Below, piece after piece: positions 12,217 through 20,926 of a stretch of 36,487 nt of DNA. The notes below the pieces were generated by a model that saw only the letters and a program-made list of their open reading frames with translations, was not told where the DNA came from and made no database searches. How positions within the stretch are numbered: position 1 is the first letter of the stretch; each line of letters opens with the position of its first letter. The stretch is from Bacteriovoracaceae bacterium (GTDB lineage: Bacteria; Bdellovibrionota; Bacteriovoracia; Bacteriovoracales; Bacteriovoracaceae), in NCBI GenBank assembly GCA_947446575.1, contig CANFHC010000030.1, positions 1-36,487 on the forward strand. The letters are read 5' to 3'. A program made the position numbers and the translations under genes.

Positions 12217-14571
12217 TTATACTGTTTGCTCAGGAGTAATAATTTTTAAGTGCTCTGCTGTCATGCCAGAGAGTCTGCACATTTCATCAATCCGTTTCAT
12301 CTCAGACTTTAAATTGATCACTAGCATTTTTAAGACTTGAACCATCTCATCATCTTTAGCATGAGCATTTTGAGAAATTTTAGAAGCTGAGAACTGGGCG
12401 TTTTCTAAATTGTTTTTTACGATTTCTAAACGTTGTCTTATAGAGTCTAGATCAATTCTCTCACGAGATTCTACCATCATATCCATTTTCATAACAGTAA
12501 CATCTAACTGAGTCACAACTTCGTTAAAGCCATTTAAAACTTTTTCAAATCCCTTCATTTCTAGTTTTATTTTCCCTAAGAACTGATCAACTCTAAGAGT
12601 GTCATCTTCGTGATTTTGAAAAATTAACAATTGATCGAGCACTTGAGTAATACGTGATTTAAACTCTTCTACGTTGCCTTTAAGTTCTTTAAATTCTGAC
12701 TTTAGACCAGTAATAGTTTTTAAGCTTTTTATATAATCATCGACCGTTTTCTCAGCTTTTTCAGCACTCGTAAGAATCTTGTTTTGATCTTTGTAAAACT
12801 CTCTTGAAGAACTAAGGGCAAATTTAAATTGTTCTTCTAATTGGTCACGGGCATCTAAGACAGCTGTAACAGAAGATTTGAATTGATTGTATTTGCTTAC
12901 AGAGGCCCTTTGAGTTTCAAAAGAAGCAACTAGTGATTTTCTCATATCAGCTAAAATATTGCGTTGATCATTTAGTGAATTTTCTAGTCTTTCAATTTCG
13001 CCTGATAACTCATCACGTAGAGCTTCATTTTTATCTACGTATTGGACAAACTTAGAAAACAGATCTGCTCCTCCAGCGATATCTGCATCGTTGCGAAGTT
13101 GTGCTTTTAAATCGTTTGTCATTGTCTCGTTAGAATAAGTTTCCATTAAAGTAACCAGAGGTGCAACAATAGCCGCTTTTTGATTACTTAATCTCTCTTC
13201 AACTTCTTTCATCGGATAGAAAATAATCATAATGCGTTTTTGTGCCGAATACTCAGCAGGTGAAACGTGCATTTCGTAAGGAATAGGTTTAGCTACTCCT
13301 GCTGTTTTAACTTGGATTTTATAAACACCGTGAGTGCTCATGCGAAGTGCACTTAAAATAGAACTATTATCTTCAAGATTTGTAAAACGTTGTAAGAAGT
13401 CCCATGTTAGTGAATCTCCTCCATCTTCGTTGAAATTTTGTAATTTCCATTCTTCATAAAAATGAGAATTTCCCCAAATCATATTTAGATTTGAATCTAA
13501 TAAGATAGAAGCAAACGGCATCGCCTCTTGAAAGATTGATCCAAAAGTCATTCTTTTGTGAACATAGTCACGATATTTTTCTAACTCACCAGTGAATTCA
13601 TGAGAGAACTTATCTATACTTTTTGGTTCTAAAGGAAGTAATCCTTCTTTTATAGTATCCAAGATAAGTTTCTCAGTTTTTTGAGATCCTCTTTTGGTTG
13701 AATAATTATAAAGCAAGAGCCCTAGAGCTAGGGAAAGCGAAAAACTAGCAAAAACAATTATTAGTGAGTACATAATTGTTTGAGAACTTTTTTCAAATTG
13801 GATTTTCTTTAAAGCGATTTCCGGTTCTACAAACTTAAACCACGTGTGGTAGTCTGCAGAGAAATCTTTAAATGTACGATTGAATTTTTTATGATCTTCG
13901 ACATAAGTATCAAGCATGCTTGTTTCTATTTTTATCGTTTTAATTCGATTAATAATAGCGCTCTTTATATCAGCTGGAAGTCCTGTAGATTCTGCAAAGT
14001 TTGTCATGGCTTCTATATCATTATTAATTGACTGAGCTAAGTTTTGAGTTTTTTCAAAATTATAAAGTCCACCTTGTATGATTCGACCAGGTGAAGATTT
14101 GATTCTCAAATTGATCGCCATTTTTGTAAGTGTCGGCCACTTTTTTTCTGTAACAAAACTCTCAAACGCCGTAGCCTTTGCAGTAATACTATTTAAAACA
14201 GAAGTTAGTTCAGGAGCCGATAGAAAATTTATTAAATCCGCTTTGATTTTTTTAGTATTGTCTTCAAAAGTAGTTTTATCACCAGTAGGTTTTATTGATT
14301 TTAAATCGTGAATGTCTTGATCAAGACGATTGAAGATTCTATTGGCATCTTTAATTCTGTCTCCATCAACAAATTTTTTGATTTCATCAATATCATTACG
14401 CTCTTTTACTGCGCGAACTTTACTAGTTCCATCGTAAAGATTACTGACGTATTCGATATTCAGCAGCCCTGAAGTCCAATAGTAGTTTACTCCATATAAA
14501 AATAAACCTGTCATTGCGAGAATCACAAAGACGTAATAGAAATGCACAACTCGTCCTAGAGTAAATCGCAT
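12217..14571 (-). CDS. Membrane protein with PAS-like region and long coiled coil, last gene of flagellar operon
   Basis: No specific family recognised. The 784 residues read as TM1 (about 10-29), a helical extracytoplasmic region (about 40-265), TM2 (about 273-291), a short linker, a PAS-like region (about 353-462, with ASILLDSNLNMIWGN and YKIQV), then a cytoplasmic coiled coil to the C-terminus. The topology resembles a chemoreceptor, but the conserved MCP hairpin tip is absent and there is no histidine kinase, GGDEF or phosphatase motif. It follows the 320-residue orphan downstream of fliA and ends at the operon terminator. A sensor, scaffold or polar landmark for the motor are all possible; the function is unknown. 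Confidence 0.85.
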   Translation of the reverse strand: MRFTLGRVVHFYYVFVILAMTGLFLYGVNYYWTSGLLNIEYVSNLYDGTSKVRAVKERNDIDEIKKFVDGDRIKDANRIFNRLDQDIHDLKSIKPTGDKTTFEDNTKKIKADLINFLSAPELTSVLNSITAKATAFESFVTEKKWPTLTKMAINLRIKSSPGRIIQGGLYNFEKTQNLAQSINNDIEAMTNFAESTGLPADIKSAIINRIKTIKIETSMLDTYVEDHKKFNRTFKDFSADYHTWFKFVEPEIALKKIQFEKSSQTIMYSLIIVFASFSLSLALGLLLYNYSTKRGSQKTEKLILDTIKEGLLPLEPKSIDKFSHEFTGELEKYRDYVHKRMTFGSIFQEAMPFASILLDSNLNMIWGNSHFYEEWKLQNFNEDGGDSLTWDFLQRFTNLEDNSSILSALRMSTHGVYKIQVKTAGVAKPIPYEMHVSPAEYSAQKRIMIIFYPMKEVEERLSNQKAAIVAPLVTLMETYSNETMTNDLKAQLRNDADIAGGADLFSKFVQYVDKNEALRDELSGEIERLENSLNDQRNILADMRKSLVASFETQRASVSKYNQFKSSVTAVLDARDQLEEQFKFALSSSREFYKDQNKILTSAEKAEKTVDDYIKSLKTITGLKSEFKELKGNVEEFKSRITQVLDQLLIFQNHEDDTLRVDQFLGKIKLEMKGFEKVLNGFNEVVTQLDVTVMKMDMMVESRERIDLDSIRQRLEIVKNNLENAQFSASKISQNAHAKDDEMVQVLKMLVINLKSEMKRIDEMCRLSGMTAEHLKIITPEQTV

Positions 14572-14604: not shown

Positions 14605-15567
14605 TTACTGATTAAATAGGGAGAAAAAATCGATCGTTCGATAATATGTAGAAACATCCTGTTCCCTCATTTGTCCATCTTGACTGCTGGCTAGACTACG
14701 TGAATAAGCCTCAGTTGAAAGGTTACCTTTCATTGGTAGTATGATAGAAACTGGACGAAATAAAAAGGGAAAGTGCAAAATTTCTTTGTTAGCTGATTCC
14801 AGACGAGATAGGTCTGGTACTTGATAAGAATCTTTCACAGACAGATCACTTCCTACCTCTATCACGTTGTGTTCACCTACTGCTTTTACGTCATCTAAAT
14901 GAGCGCGATATTGACAAAAAATATTGGAAAATCCGACAAAATAGTTTTCTTTTTGAGACACTTTAAAATTCACTTTATAAACTAGTGAATCATCGTGAGA
15001 AATATCAACTTTTAAATCTAATTTAAAAAGCCCTGCTCTCGCCGTTTTTTCGACATTAAACGTCAGCAGTACTTTTTGATGCAAAAGTTTTCTAGTTACA
15101 ACATAGATGAATTTGCGGTTAATTTCGAGGTGTCCATCTTCAAGGATCATCCCTGAAATTTGAAGCTTTCCTTCATTGAGTCTAGTTTCAATATTTCCAT
15201 GGTAATTAAACAATGAAACGACAGATAGCACTTCAGGGATGATTTCTAAAATCAGATTCCACTTTTGCAGGTCTATCTTAGAAGTCGACTTATAGTATTC
15301 GAAACTTTTAAATTTTACTTTATTACTAAAAAAATTAGTAAAAATGGATTCAAATTTCTCATCGAGAACTTTTGAGACTTGCTCATAGTGGGCCACTTGT
15401 CCTTGAGAGTTTACGTCAGCCTTTCTTTTCATTTCCGACAAATGAAAATAAGCCCGACCAATCAAGGGCGAGAGTGAAAATTCAGAAAGAAGCTGAATAT
15501 CCTCAAGGGTACTCAGGCTCTTTTCAAATTCATCATTAAATGATGTTTGATGATTTCTTTTTTCCAT
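14605..15567 (-). CDS. Uncharacterised protein in flagellar operon after fliA
   Basis: Soluble-looking protein of 320 residues with no signal peptide or membrane segment and no family I recognise. The N-terminal 100 residues look helical and charged. The middle (about 130-260) is rich in alternating hydrophobic residues and may be a beta-sandwich-like fold (ILEDGHLEINRKFIYVV, LFKLDLKVDISHD). It starts three bases after the fliA stop with no clear Shine-Dalgarno, so translation probably depends on coupling to fliA. The 784-residue membrane protein follows after 33 bases. Position suggests a flagellar or motility role, but nothing in the sequence proves it. Confidence 0.8.
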   Translation of the reverse strand: MEKRNHQTSFNDEFEKSLSTLEDIQLLSEFSLSPLIGRAYFHLSEMKRKADVNSQGQVAHYEQVSKVLDEKFESIFTNFFSNKVKFKSFEYYKSTSKIDLQKWNLILEIIPEVLSVVSLFNYHGNIETRLNEGKLQISGMILEDGHLEINRKFIYVVTRKLLHQKVLLTFNVEKTARAGLFKLDLKVDISHDDSLVYKVNFKVSQKENYFVGFSNIFCQYRAHLDDVKAVGEHNVIEVGSDLSVKDSYQVPDLSRLESANKEILHFPFLFRPVSIILPMKGNLSTEAYSRSLASSQDGQMREQDVSTYYRTIDFFSLFNQ

Positions 15568-15570
15568 TTT

Positions 15571-16356
15571 TTAGCTAGCAAGATCCTCTACTGATTCAAA
15601 AATAGTTCTAAGTTTTGCTCTTAGTTTTAGAATCGCCTGTGTATGAAGTTGCGATACTCTCGATTCAGTTACGTCTAAAACTGATCCGATTTCTTTAAGG
15701 TTTAAATCTTCATAATAGTATAAGGAAAGCACGAGTCTTTGCTTTTCTGGCAAAGTCATAATTCCTTCTTTGATCTTTTCACGTGAATCTTTCTGGCTTA
15801 CAGTCGTGTATGGATTTAATGCTCTATGGTCTTCCATAACTTCTGAAATAAGTTTTTTATCGCCTTTATTAAAGCTGGCTGAATCATCGATATTTAACAA
15901 TGAAATAGACTTCGCTTTATTTAATAAATCATGGAATTCTTCTTGGTTCATTCCCAGCTCAGAACACATTTCTTCATCTGTTGCTGGACGACCTAAATTA
16001 GCTTCCAGTTTCGAGTATGCTCTCTCTACTGTTTTGGCTTTTTCACGGATGGATCTTGGTACCCAGTCTTGAGCACGAAGTTCATCTAGGATGGCCCCAC
16101 GGATTCTGAATTCAGCGTATGTTTTAAATTTGTTATCGCGAGTTGGATCGAATTTTTCAATTGCGTCCATGAGTCCGATAACTCCACAAGAAATGAGATC
16201 ATCCAACTCAATATTTGATGGAAGACGAGACGCAATTTTTTGCGCGATGTATTTTACGAGTGGTGCATACTCAATAATAATTTCATCTTTAACTTTAGGT
16301 TCTACAGTTGAGCGGTAGTCTTTTAAGTTTTTCAATTTTTTTGATAGAGTCGACAT
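15571..16356 (-). CDS. fliA: RNA polymerase sigma-28 factor FliA
   Basis: Flagellar sigma factor (FliA/WhiG/SigD group) that directs late flagellar and motility genes. It has 261 residues. Region 2 is clear (YAPLVKYIAQKIASRLP, DLISCGVIGLMDAIEKFDP, FKTYAEFRIRGAILDELRAQDWVPRS), region 3 follows, and region 4 ends with the helix-turn-helix LNLKEIGSVLDVTESRVSQLH. GGAGAG precedes the ATG. It directly follows flhG, as in many polar-flagellate genomes. Sigma28-like promoter candidates occur in this window at 30232 and, more weakly, at 33684. Confidence 0.95.
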   Translation of the reverse strand: MSTLSKKLKNLKDYRSTVEPKVKDEIIIEYAPLVKYIAQKIASRLPSNIELDDLISCGVIGLMDAIEKFDPTRDNKFKTYAEFRIRGAILDELRAQDWVPRSIREKAKTVERAYSKLEANLGRPATDEEMCSELGMNQEEFHDLLNKAKSISLLNIDDSASFNKGDKKLISEVMEDHRALNPYTTVSQKDSREKIKEGIMTLPEKQRLVLSLYYYEDLNLKEIGSVLDVTESRVSQLHTQAILKLRAKLRTIFESVEDLAS

Positions 16357-16371: not shown

Positions 16372-17259
16372 TTAAAGTGTAAAACGAACGTCGTGTTCGA
16401 GGCGAGTTGTGAACTTCGGTGCAAATTCGGAGTCTGCACTTTTAGCTGCGCCCTCTATCTCTTCGGTAAATTTCTTTACGATTTTCACAAAATTCTTATG
16501 CAGGGAAGAATTTTCCTGGTGAAGTAAAACTGTATCAAAGTGATCGACTGGGGACTCTTCGTTTTTAATTCCACCTAAGATGTGAAGTCGGCATTTTAAA
16601 AATGTTTCGACTGTTTCACTCAGGGTTTTTACCATTCTTTGGTATTGAGGTTCTGAAGAGACTTTATTAATAAGTAAATGATTATCATTCACACCAAATT
16701 CTTTATTTAAGATTTTAATAAGTGAATATGAATCAGTGACAGAAGATTTATCCGGCGTCACGACTACAAAACGATAATCGCTGTAAGCGTTTAGAGTAAG
16801 AGTTTCTTTTGTTATCCCCGCGGGGCAATCCAAAATAATATAATCGTAGTCGCGTTCATGATTAACGAGAATATCAATGATGATGCGGTCTACTTCGAGA
16901 GTCTTGTTAAAGAGATCTATATTGCCATTACAACCCGAAAGTAAATGAAGGTTGCCATCCTTATGGAGACAATCATCAAACTCTCTTTGAGCTGAAATGA
17001 GCTCATAAAAATAATTTGTAATCGGAAGACCAAGTTTTACAACTGTATTAGATAAATTAGTATCACAATCAAGGAGCAAAACCTTATAGCCTGATTGGGC
17101 CATAAGTTTTGCCATTTTTACAGCGACTGAAGTTTTCCCAACTCCCCCCTTACCTGCGGTAACGGAAATTGTTTTTGCTTTTAGACTTGTTTTTTTGGAC
17201 TGGTATTTATTCTGAGAAACGAGCCAATCACTTGGATTGGATTTTTTTAAACTAAGCAT
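16372..17259 (-). CDS. flhG: MinD-like ATPase FlhG (FleN/YlxH)
   Basis: ParA/MinD-family ATPase that limits flagellar number and partners FlhF. It has 295 residues. The deviant Walker A GKGGVGKT is at 36-43, the switch segment LLLDCDTNLSN at 61-71, and the Walker B-like block ILDCPAGI near 146, so ATP binding looks intact. FlhG proteins usually carry an N-terminal DQAxxLR motif that activates the FlhF GTPase; the first 30 residues here contain no such motif. That absence matches the degenerate G-domain in the neighbouring FlhF. AGGAAG precedes the ATG. The 85-base gap to flhF holds no gene. Confidence 0.92.
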   Translation of the reverse strand: MLSLKKSNPSDWLVSQNKYQSKKTSLKAKTISVTAGKGGVGKTSVAVKMAKLMAQSGYKVLLLDCDTNLSNTVVKLGLPITNYFYELISAQREFDDCLHKDGNLHLLSGCNGNIDLFNKTLEVDRIIIDILVNHERDYDYIILDCPAGITKETLTLNAYSDYRFVVVTPDKSSVTDSYSLIKILNKEFGVNDNHLLINKVSSEPQYQRMVKTLSETVETFLKCRLHILGGIKNEESPVDHFDTVLLHQENSSLHKNFVKIVKKFTEEIEGAAKSADSEFAPKFTTRLEHDVRFTL

Positions 17260-17344: not shown

Positions 17345-18844
17345 TTAAGAAAATTTAAAAATACCGGCTAAAATTCTCTCTGCAGTTGCTGGCTCTAAAT
17401 CATCTGGAACAACTTCACCTGTTCCAAAAAACTTGTAAGGAAGATCTTTAATATCTTGAGTGATGTTAAAGAGAGATCCAAAATTCAAGCAAGCATCCAA
17501 GTGAGAAACTACCACACCATCTGAAAGGCTGCGGTAAGTGCCAAGGACCTTTCTATTGTATAATTCTGTGTGAATTGCTGAAAGAGTGATCAATACTTCC
17601 ACTTTTGAAAATGCTCGTCTTAATCCATCAATAAATTTTTTAGTATCATTGCTTTCTGTCTCGTTGCATTTGTAATCGATGAAGACAGATTTACCATCTT
17701 CCATGGCCTTACGGCACTCGCCTACAATCTCCGCAATGCTTGCAGCTTTTATTACATGCATTCCAAAAATTTTCTCAGTAAAACTTGCTTTTGATTCATT
17801 TACAGTTGTGACATTTCTGATGATCACGGAATCTTTTTTCATCGTACCTATTTTCTGAACCATTGAACTTTGTCCACAAGAAGCTTCAGATAGAAAAACT
17901 GTTATTACTGGATTTTTAGCAGTGGTAGCAGCTGAAAAAAGTGGCATTGCTGTTGATACTGTAGTCATCATTTCTCTTAAAGCAAATTCAAAAACTACAT
18001 CTGCATTTTCAACGTCAGATTCTGTTAATTCAAACAAACCTTTTTTGATAAGATGTTGAATATAAATTTCATTAATATCCAAACTTCTTAGAGTTGTACG
18101 CAATTGATAAATTCCAATTGGCTCTTTTTTATGAATGCGTTCAAAACTTCTTGTTAACTCAAAAAGTTTTTTCTCTAATTCGTCGATTTTTGTTTTTTGC
18201 TTTTCAAACATTTCCTCTCCAATCAAGCGCGATCCTTTTGTATTCGCAGCTTGTTGTTGAGCAGCTTGCTGCTGAACAACACGACTTGGTGCTGCCATTT
18301 GAACTTGTTGTGCCGGTTGAGCTTCCCTGCGTGGAGCTTGAATTATAGGACGACTTGCTTCCACTTCATCGTCAAAATTAAAATCATTATGCGATCTTGC
18401 ATGACGATCTTCTTTTTCACCTAAACTTAAGAAATCATCTAAACCTTCACGAAGACCAGACTTAATTTGTGAAGCAATTCCTTTTGTTGAAGATACTGGG
18501 CGATTGAGTCCTGCACTTCCGTATCCGTTATTGCTTCTAGAACCATTTGATGATGAGTTTGAGCGAGAGTGTTCGTGTTGATCTATCATATTTGCTATAT
18601 ATCCTGCGCTGCCATTATAAAATTCTTCTTTTTGGTTTTCGTTTAATACAGTATCAACCGATGCTTTTCGCACGTAATTCTTTTCAGAAATGGCCGCTGT
18701 AATTTCGATTTTTTTCTTTTTGAATGCGCCCTTTAATCCTTTATTAGTTATTGTTTTTAAAATAACCGCATCAGGACCAAGCTCGCGTTTGATGTCTTTT
18801 AGTGCTTCTTCAATAGTGTCAGCTTCAAATTTTCTTACGTACAT
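17345..18844 (-). CDS. flhF: FlhF-like protein with degenerate GTPase motifs
   Basis: Homolog of the SRP-type GTPase that places polar flagella. The N-terminal signature is intact (residues 1-53: MYVRKFEADTIEEALKDIK, ELGPDAVILKT). Residues 90-205 form a Ser/Gln/Ala-rich linker, and an NG-like region fills 240-499. The nucleotide motifs are eroded: the P-loop position (319-328) reads SEASCGQSSM without the GKT lysine, DTAGR is replaced by IDYKCNE (389-395), and TKLD by SHLD (447-450). The last motif GTGEVVPDDLEPA (475-487) is kept. The fold and gene order flhA-flhF-flhG support FlhF, but normal GTP binding looks unlikely. The start lies three bases after the flhA stop. Confidence 0.9.
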   Translation of the reverse strand: MYVRKFEADTIEEALKDIKRELGPDAVILKTITNKGLKGAFKKKKIEITAAISEKNYVRKASVDTVLNENQKEEFYNGSAGYIANMIDQHEHSRSNSSSNGSRSNNGYGSAGLNRPVSSTKGIASQIKSGLREGLDDFLSLGEKEDRHARSHNDFNFDDEVEASRPIIQAPRREAQPAQQVQMAAPSRVVQQQAAQQQAANTKGSRLIGEEMFEKQKTKIDELEKKLFELTRSFERIHKKEPIGIYQLRTTLRSLDINEIYIQHLIKKGLFELTESDVENADVVFEFALREMMTTVSTAMPLFSAATTAKNPVITVFLSEASCGQSSMVQKIGTMKKDSVIIRNVTTVNESKASFTEKIFGMHVIKAASIAEIVGECRKAMEDGKSVFIDYKCNETESNDTKKFIDGLRRAFSKVEVLITLSAIHTELYNRKVLGTYRSLSDGVVVSHLDACLNFGSLFNITQDIKDLPYKFFGTGEVVPDDLEPATAERILAGIFKFS

Positions 18845-18847
18845 TTA

Positions 18848-20926
18848 TTACAACCTCACCGTTCCTAGTGATCTAATATTCGCATCAGGCGAAAGCTCAT
18901 TGTGGCTTACTACCACAAGGTTGGGGATAAATTTTTCAGTTAAGCGCTTAAAGTGTGAGCGAATAACTGGAGAGCAAAGTACCACCATTTTTTCTCCCAT
19001 ATTGGTTGCTTCTTCAATTTTTTCATTGAGAGAAGCCAATATGATCTGAGTGACTTTGGGATCAAGAGATAACTGTTGTCCTTGGTCGGTTTGAATAATA
19101 TTCTGAGCGATTGACTCTTCAATATTACGATCCAAAGTAAACAATGGAATATCTCCAGAATCACTTTTAATCTTCTCAGTAATGGTTCTAAACAGAGCTT
19201 GACGAGAAAATTCTGTCAACGCTTCTGTGTCTTTAATTGTAGAGCCATACTCAGATAATGTCTCTAAAATTGTGCGTAGATCACGTACCGAAACACCTTC
19301 TCTTAGTAAATTTTTCATGACCTTTAAAACAATTCCCAGATTTAAAATGTCAGGTATTAAGTCATTGACCAATTTGGGATTTGTTTCTTTAAAGTTATCC
19401 ACAACACGAACTAGTTCTTGGCGACCAAATAGCTCGTGCAGATTTGATTTTAAAATTTCTGTTAAATGTGTTGCTACAATTGTCGAGCAATCTACTACGG
19501 TATACCCATTGTATTGAGCATCTTCTTTTTGATCTTCAGAAATCCAAACTGCACGAAGACCAAAAACTGGCTCTGTCGTTTCTACCCCGTCCATTTTTTC
19601 AATAACAGTTCCTGGATCCATTGCTAAAAAGTAATCCGACATCAACTCGCCTTTAGCAACCTGAATTCCCTTAATTTTTACAGAGTATCCACCGGGCTTT
19701 AACTCTAAATTATCTTTAATCTTGACCGACGGAATGATAACTCCCCAATCCAGAGCAAAAATTTTTCTCATGTGAGTAATACGTTCAAGAAGATCACCAT
19801 TTTGTTCAGTATCAACTAAGTGAACTAACCCATATCCAACTTCGAGTTCGACCAGCTCCATATTGAGAAGTTCTTCGAGATTTTGTGGGCTGGTTTTTTT
19901 GGTAACTTCCACAGATTTTTGTTTTTCTGCGATTTCTTCTTTTGTATTTCCTTGCTCGATTTTATAGGCCACGAATCCAAGAGCACCTCCCATTGCAAAA
20001 AATGGAAGTTTTGGAAGACCTGGAATTAATCCAAAGAAAATAAGAACCGCACCCGCGATATAAATGGCTTTTGGGTGAACTTTAAATTGTTTGGAAACCT
20101 GCATACCGATATTGTCATCGTTGGTATTTCTTGTAACAAGAATACCAGCTGCAGTAGAAATAATTAGGGCAGGAATTTGAGTAACGAGACCATCACCCAC
20201 TGTTAAAAGTGTGAATGTCTCTGCTGCTTTTCCAATATCCATTCCGTTTTGAGCAACACCTATAATGATACCGCCGATGATATTGATTGCTGTAATCAAG
20301 ATACCCGCGATTGCATCTCCTCGAACGAACTTCGAAGCACCGTCCATCGACCCGTAAAAATCTGCTTCTTCAGCAACTTCTTTACGTCTGCGTTTTGCTT
20401 CAACATCATTAATTAATCCAGCGTTCAAATCGGCATCGATCGCCATTTGCTTCCCTGGCATCGCATCTAAAGTAAATCGAGCAGCAACTTCAGCAACACG
20501 ACCAGCACCTTTCGTTACAACCATAAAGTTGATGATGACTAAGATGATAAAGATAACGATACCAACAACAAAATTCCCTTCTACAACGAATTCACCAAAA
20601 GACTTGATGATATCACCGGCCGCTCCGGTTCCGTCTTGCGCTCCGTGAATAAGAATATTTCTAGTAGAAGCAACGTTCAAGGCAAGTCGAAAAAGTGTCG
20701 AGATAAGAAGGACCGAAGGAAACGTTGAAAAATCTAGGGGTCTTTTCGTATAGAGAGAAACGAGCATGATCATAACTGAAAAGGCCAGTGACAATGCCAG
20801 TAGCAAATCGAGAATTATGGGTGGGACTGGTACGATCATCACCACGAGAATCATCAAAATACCAATGGCTGCCAGAACATCTGGGCCTTGGGTGAAGATT
20901 TTCATTTTCTTTAACATGTCATTCAT
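18848..20926 (-). CDS. flhA: Flagellar export gate protein FlhA
   Basis: Largest inner-membrane subunit of the flagellar type III export gate; it conducts protons and docks chaperone-substrate complexes. It has 692 residues. About eight TM helices lie in residues 15-310, including the FHIPEP-family block RLALNVASTRNILIHG and the cytoplasmic loop with LDAMPGKQMAIDADLNAGLI. The C-terminal cytoplasmic domain runs from about 330 to 692 (LEVGYGLVHLVD, RTILETLSEYG). AGGTGA lies just upstream of the ATG. It is between flhB and flhF, the usual order. No defects seen. Confidence 0.97.
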   Translation of the reverse strand: MNDMLKKMKIFTQGPDVLAAIGILMILVVMIVPVPPIILDLLLALSLAFSVMIMLVSLYTKRPLDFSTFPSVLLISTLFRLALNVASTRNILIHGAQDGTGAAGDIIKSFGEFVVEGNFVVGIVIFIILVIINFMVVTKGAGRVAEVAARFTLDAMPGKQMAIDADLNAGLINDVEAKRRRKEVAEEADFYGSMDGASKFVRGDAIAGILITAINIIGGIIIGVAQNGMDIGKAAETFTLLTVGDGLVTQIPALIISTAAGILVTRNTNDDNIGMQVSKQFKVHPKAIYIAGAVLIFFGLIPGLPKLPFFAMGGALGFVAYKIEQGNTKEEIAEKQKSVEVTKKTSPQNLEELLNMELVELEVGYGLVHLVDTEQNGDLLERITHMRKIFALDWGVIIPSVKIKDNLELKPGGYSVKIKGIQVAKGELMSDYFLAMDPGTVIEKMDGVETTEPVFGLRAVWISEDQKEDAQYNGYTVVDCSTIVATHLTEILKSNLHELFGRQELVRVVDNFKETNPKLVNDLIPDILNLGIVLKVMKNLLREGVSVRDLRTILETLSEYGSTIKDTEALTEFSRQALFRTITEKIKSDSGDIPLFTLDRNIEESIAQNIIQTDQGQQLSLDPKVTQIILASLNEKIEEATNMGEKMVVLCSPVIRSHFKRLTEKFIPNLVVVSHNELSPDANIRSLGTVRL

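Follow-up and report, generated by a model that had tools for sequence, protein, structure and literature searches.

The window, by which we mean the whole stretch of 36,487 nucleotides analysed here, taken from a contig of a Bacteriovoracaceae bacterium (CANFHC010000030.1, assembly GCA_947446575.1), carries on its minus strand a run of genes that begins with flhA and ends with the gene of a receptor-like protein:

18848..20926, minus strand: flhA, immediately upstream of flhF, with a gap of 3 bp
17345..18844, minus strand: flhF, coding for an FlhF ortholog of 499 aa, with a B domain, a disordered linker and the N and G domains, its GTPase motifs being replaced
16372..17259, minus strand: flhG, coding for a MinD/FleN-type ATPase of 295 aa with an intact Walker A motif
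15571..16356, minus strand: fliA, coding for a sigma-28 factor of the FliA/WhiG type, which adjoins FlhF even in a genus where flagellar genes were not detected
14605..15567, minus strand: gene of a 320-aa protein of no recognized family, found between FliA and the two-transmembrane protein in many relatives
12217..14571, minus strand: gene of a 784-aa receptor-like protein with two transmembrane helices (residues 8-26 and 269-287) and a coiled-coil-like tail

The intergenic gaps, from flhA through flhF, flhG, fliA and the 320-aa gene to the 784-aa gene, are 3, 85, 15, 3 and 33 bp. The order flhA-flhF-flhG-fliA, conserved in the window and in most of 80 named loci, supports orthology, and flhF-flhG-fliA is also found at 12 outgroup loci. 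Further downstream, the succession of FlhF, FlhG, FliA and a two-transmembrane protein is seen in most of the relatives whose loci are long enough to display it. Family profile searches returned no significant match for the 320-aa and 784-aa proteins; the latter is syntenic with flhF-flhG-fliA throughout the class, often with the 320-aa orphan in between. Two-transmembrane proteins of like size also follow FliA in the families f17 and f20, and homology between them and the 784-aa protein was not detected.

The flhF product is an FlhF ortholog by its gene order, its domains and its fold. Its N-terminal signature, MYVRKFEADTIEEALKDIKRELGPDAVILKT, is intact, and in a PDB profile search the class profile matched both the Shewanella FliG-interaction domain (9en1, E 0.0018) and the FlhF structure 2px0 (E 4e-8); matches to influenza HA2 in the same search were discarded as coiled-coil artefacts. 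An AlphaFold2 model of the protein (54 relatives), with pLDDT above 90 for most residues of the NG region, adopts the SRP-type NG fold, with Z about 22.7 against FlhF (2px3/2px0) and FtsY and 22.6 against 8r9r, the superpositions giving an rmsd of 2.4-3.1 Å over about 240 residues. Family models recognize it poorly: TIGR03499 (NCBIfam) covers its first half with 64.2 bits, below the curated cut-off of 174.15, and Pfam finds a weak match to the SRP54 G domain. Retained and replaced elements are distributed along the protein as follows:

18677..18844, minus strand: N-terminal domain of the FliG-interaction type, residues 1-56, the most constrained part (dN/dS 0.013), matching 9en1
17861..17890, minus strand: former P-loop, S319-EASCGQSSM-328, with Gln325 invariant where the lysine stood
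17762..17833, minus strand: former G2 and insertion-box stretch (catalytic DTYR), residues 338-361, truly eroded, its sequence and length both variable
17660..17683, minus strand: former G3 (DTAGR), now FID390YKCNE, with the Asp retained and T, A, G and R lost
17549..17584, minus strand: new class-specific motif LSAIHTELYNRK, residues 421-432, with E427, Y429 and N430 near-invariant
17465..17506, minus strand: former G4, S447-H-L-D450-A-C452...N460, with Asp450 and Cys452 retained and the Lys changed to H, N or Y
17393..17431, minus strand: G5 closing-loop motif FFGTGEVVPDDLE, retained, the window reading GTGEVVPDDL

The initial annotation had noticed SEASCGQSSM, IDYKCNE and SHLD in place of the GTPase motifs, together with the persistence of the N-terminal signature and of a GxxVPDDL-type G5. 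All this is real, and the changes recur in 103 distinct sequences. Glutamine stands at the P-loop lysine position in every one of these 103 class sequences, so that the usual GxxGxGK[TS] reads SxxxxGQ[ST]; the first glycine is a serine in 101 of them, the glycine that precedes the glutamine (G324) is kept in 102/103 and a serine or threonine follows it (position 326) in 100/103. In the model, the P-loop has the length found in a normal SRP GTPase (strand 314-319, loop, helix 325-335). Of DTAGR, the G3 aspartate (Asp390) is kept in 102/103 sequences; of TKxD, the G4 aspartate (Asp450) is present in all 102 sequences with a letter there and the lysine in only 2/103. The DTxR catalytic motif of G2 has disappeared in a stretch that is variable and gapped across the class FlhFs. 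Two motifs specific to the class, LSAIHSExYN and LDxCLNFGALFN, are near-invariant.

As sampled, the GTDB class of the window consists of a single family, with 129 genomes (Bacteriovoracaceae, Halobacteriovorax and relatives). A direct search found the glutamine-type FlhF in 119 of these, and a canonical FlhF turned up in none of the 129 at E<=1e-30; the relatives with a name are Bacteriovorax, Bacteriovorax stolpii, Halobacteriovorax marinus and Bacteriovoracaceae MAGs. In a sample of the phylum, 152 of 291 genomes encode a canonical FlhF. In a joint alignment, the P-loop lysine and threonine are present in 44/44 outgroup FlhFs, which represent 22 further families of the phylum; a profile of the 56 N-terminal residues recovers FlhFs throughout the phylum. 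Nine of the ten class genomes without an FlhF match are also without FlhA, and in the tenth FlhA lacks its C-terminal end, as a contig edge would explain. We considered whether the genome of the window has a second, canonical FlhF and rejected this: its SRP-type proteins are one Ffh, one FtsY and one FlhF, and beyond FlhF the TIGR03499 profile picks up Ffh, FtsY and, weakly, P-loop sequences. Two assemblies (G071 and G028, 99% and 88% complete) have FliG while FlhA, FliP and FlhF were not found in them, reflecting either an assembly gap or a partial loss of the flagellum; another, G025, has two full-length copies of FlhF in an assembly that is 9% contaminated, probably a mixture of two strains.

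Loss of several motifs, together with a score under the TIGR03499 cut-off, might suggest a protein that is decaying and of no further importance, or simply faulty sequencing. Yet the same invariant replacements are found in sequences from many independent assemblies, far more consistently than chance would allow, the matched FlhF frames are free of stops except for one TAG, and the median dN/dS over eight close relatives, a rough measure here as dS is high, is 0.013 in the N-terminal (B) domain, 0.159 in the linker, 0.072 in the N domain and 0.046 in the G domain, the last value indicating strong purifying selection. On the concordance of the 103 sequences and these low ratios we reject both sequencing error and a pseudogene, and find plain degeneration hardly credible. 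The description of the G domain as eroded holds for the G2/catalytic stretch; it does not fit the P-loop, where the lysine has given way to an invariant glutamine with its neighbours retained under purifying selection; what we see there is a new motif that became fixed, not erosion.

The companion FlhG displays a related mixture of conservation and replacement. As first noticed, its Walker A is intact, reading KGGVGKT, and the deviant KGGxGK[TS] of the MinD type is invariant in an alignment of 45 sequences; the fold of its model has FleN/FlhG as closest structures, and its core evolves with a median dN/dS of 0.043 over the eight close relatives. The DQAxxLR enhancer helix, missing from the window, is found in 0/95 distinct class FlhGs. 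Its site is occupied by another element:

17203..17238, minus strand: N-terminal motif NPSDWLVSQNKY of FlhG, standing where the DQAxxLR enhancer helix would be

Within an otherwise variable tail, W12 of this motif is invariant in the alignment of 45 sequences and L13 nearly so; W[LI] (as in WLxSxN) precedes Walker A in 92/95 distinct class FlhGs and is absent from the outgroup FlhG N-termini inspected. Residues 9-15 form a helix in the model, with low confidence. The enhancer helix thus appears to have been replaced rather than merely deleted. Loss of W-L from FlhG accompanies a change of SAIHSExYN in FlhF in two divergent species, and we dropped this covariation as evidence for a contact site: in a third species (L222) W-L is missing although the FlhF motif is almost intact, and a genus (g27) that has no FlhG also keeps this motif. 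At the other end of FlhG (16372-16440), a short peptide resembling EQEV or EHDV recurs, with no obvious amphipathic targeting helix.

It had been proposed that both halves of the GTPase switch, in FlhF and in FlhG, were lost together. Comparison with the sister families does not support this. DQAxxLR is present in the families f7, f8, f9, f20 and f25, and missing in f3, f6, f11, f14, f16, f17, f18, f21-f24 and f26-f28, where FlhF has kept its GK[TS]; in f17 and f24, FlhF is even fully canonical (GPTGVGKTTT, DTTGRS, SKLDET) next to an FlhG without DQAxxLR, and Pseudomonas FleN is likewise without it (PMC12713375). In f6, the G4 lysine and the G3 arginine of FlhF are lost, with the P-loop and a D-T-x-K G2 motif kept. 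A tree of FlhA alone places f17 and f24 beside the class (SH-aLRT 91); a tree of four genes does not settle which group is sister to the class, and AU tests reject neither a grouping of f1 with f17 and f24 (p 0.27) nor one of f1 with the Bdellovibrionia-like families (p 0.08). We therefore restrict ourselves to the statement that the losses in FlhF and FlhG are decoupled, and propose no dated order for them.

The disappearance of the motifs makes it very probable that the FlhF of the class does not hydrolyse GTP. This supports part of the initial proposal of a pseudo-GTPase scaffold, a non-hydrolysing FlhF being the best reading of the sequence; to see this scaffold as deprived of GTP binding was an overstatement, as the glycine, the serine or threonine and the two aspartates of the pocket persist. 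Our preferred interpretation, to which we would give a probability of about 0.6, is that, throughout the Bacteriovorax class, the FlhF ortholog is a GTP-hydrolysis-dead, probably nucleotide-uncoupled, conserved polar adaptor. Its N-terminal domain would still bring FliG/FliF to the pole and its NG domain would still dock a polar partner, with GTP cycling no longer needed; the protein would stay in a single working state and, as an adaptor, link FliG to a membrane partner at the pole. Contact with FlhG would be kept via the new W-L helix of the latter, not via the catalytic glutamine of DQAxxLR, and the intact ATPase of FlhG might be the sole nucleotide switch left in the pair. The two-transmembrane 784-aa protein is a candidate for the membrane partner, by gene order only; in Vibrio, the one-transmembrane protein FipA adjoins the flhF operon (PMC11620751). 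Studies in other bacteria provide precedents for the separate steps. In Shewanella, the N-terminal domain of FlhF binds FliG and docking of NG to the polar landmark HubP is independent of nucleotides (PMC11236974), and a Vibrio FlhF whose catalytic arginine was changed (R334A) has no GTPase activity and places flagella normally (PMC6092412). The flagellum of Bacteriovorax stolpii is single, polar and sheathed (PMC7175336), so members of the group do manage polar placement; that it must work differently there, as the initial annotation had it, is something that one may infer.

Our confidence in the uncoupling from nucleotides is moderate. The conserved Gly-Gln-Ser/Thr and the two aspartates of the pocket could be a sign of continued nucleotide binding. 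We may then imagine an altered switch, in which GTP, GDP or some other nucleotide sits in the modified P-loop (G-Q-S/T) with the help of Asp390 and Asp450, and in which binding and dimerization occur without hydrolysis. Near-invariance of Gly324, Ser/Thr326, Asp390 and Asp450, as well as the unchanged length of the P-loop in the model, would be accounted for in this way. FlhF of Vibrio cholerae and V. alginolyticus apparently needs to bind GTP but not to hydrolyse it; Vibrio K305A is partly functional, and T306A and D439A abolish flagella (PMC6092412). In the class FlhF, the residues corresponding to T306 and D439 are retained, and those corresponding to K305 and R334 are gone. Against such a switch, Lys is changed to Gln, the P-loop is without its first and fourth glycines, and DTxR, the TAGR of G3 and the G4 lysine are lost as well; in P-loop GTPases, combined losses of this kind normally abolish GTP binding or weaken it strongly. 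The G2/insertion region is, moreover, variable. We consider the altered switch unlikely, and keep the nucleotide-uncoupled adaptor as the better account.

This adaptor, if purely flagellar, leaves unexplained the persistence of FlhF in the genus g27, where neither FlhG nor flagellar genes are detectable. Its three genomes (G065, G067 and G068) are 98, 94 and 99% complete; FliG and FliP were found in none of them, FlhA was not found in G065, the sole genome in which it was sought, and a search for an FlhG ortholog gave background MinD-like matches only. FlhF is intact there, with the class motifs, and is directly followed by FliA and then by a protein that a profile search relates to the 784-aa protein (E 1e-51 to 1e-58); an uncharacterized gene, coding for 169-173 aa, precedes flhF at these loci (L047-L049, L287-L289). 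The G domain of the g27 FlhF is still under constraint (dN 0.053 and dS 2.2 in the closer pair), and identity between species is 58-59% for two of the three pairs. The protein is thus either used outside the flagellum or a slowly decaying relic, and this divergence between species favours use; we are moderately confident that in at least one genus FlhF has a role that is not flagellar.

From there one might go as far as to suppose a repurposed module, in which FlhF would mainly serve FliA and the two-transmembrane receptor-like protein, flagellar placement being secondary. The cohabitation of the three genes in g27, the constraint on the G domain and the gene order shared by most relatives with enough sequence all point that way. 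Outside g27, however, the genomes without FlhF are just those in which FlhA is absent too or runs off a contig, which is how a flagellar protein should behave. In addition, g27 may have lost its flagellum with FlhF not yet decayed; the 58-59% identity between species argues against a recent loss, and dS is near saturation. Such a module is in our opinion improbable as the main role of the protein. A broader combination, in which a class-wide pseudo-GTPase would have lost its coupling to GTP and part of its coupling to the flagellum, would form a conserved module with FliA and the two-transmembrane protein for a second, non-flagellar job, and would have been kept by a lineage after loss of its flagellum and of FlhG, can be put forward as a tentative proposal, with somewhat less than an even chance of being right.

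Does FlhF have to bind GTP, to hydrolyse it, or neither? The answer depends on the species, and point mutants have so far been the means of probing it. Here, catalytic motif and P-loop lysine have been removed naturally in a whole class of predators that includes species with a single polar flagellum, and the new invariant pocket and the new FlhG helix make it possible to test what a G domain does without cycling and what FlhG does without activating a GTPase. That FlhF persists in g27, where no flagellar genes were detected, would extend its role beyond flagella. In the open-licence literature we found no GTPase-less FlhF in the Bacteriovorax group, nor FlhF described as a pseudo-GTPase.

The class protein resembles the FlhFs of known structure (B. 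subtilis 2px0/2px3, S. putrefaciens 8r9r and 9en1) in its position between flhA and flhG-fliA, its N-terminal FliG-interaction domain, its linker, its NG fold, its G5 and its G3 and G4 aspartates; it differs from them in the change of Lys to Gln and of the first Gly to Ser in the P-loop and in the absence of DTxR in G2, of TAGR in G3 and of the lysine in G4. With the Vibrio R334A mutant (PMC6092412) it shares the absence of the catalytic arginine, which predicts no hydrolysis, and the fact that polar flagellation can persist, whereas the change is here natural, fixed class-wide and extended to the P-loop and G4 lysines. Class FlhG has the MinD-type fold and intact Walker A of FlhG/FleN (4rz3, 5j1j), FleN also being without DQAxxLR, and differs by its W-L-x-S-x-N motif at the N-terminus and its EQEV-like peptide at the C-terminus. 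Within the same phylum, the FlhF of f6 comes near that of the class, with a G4 lysine changed to G, S or H, a lost G3 arginine and an FlhG without DQAxxLR, but has kept GxxGxGKT and the D-T-x-K motif of G2. The families f3 and f16 have short FlhFs (about 350-390 aa) with GK[TS] kept and the GxxVPxDL of G5 lost, and these make up another divergent type of FlhF.
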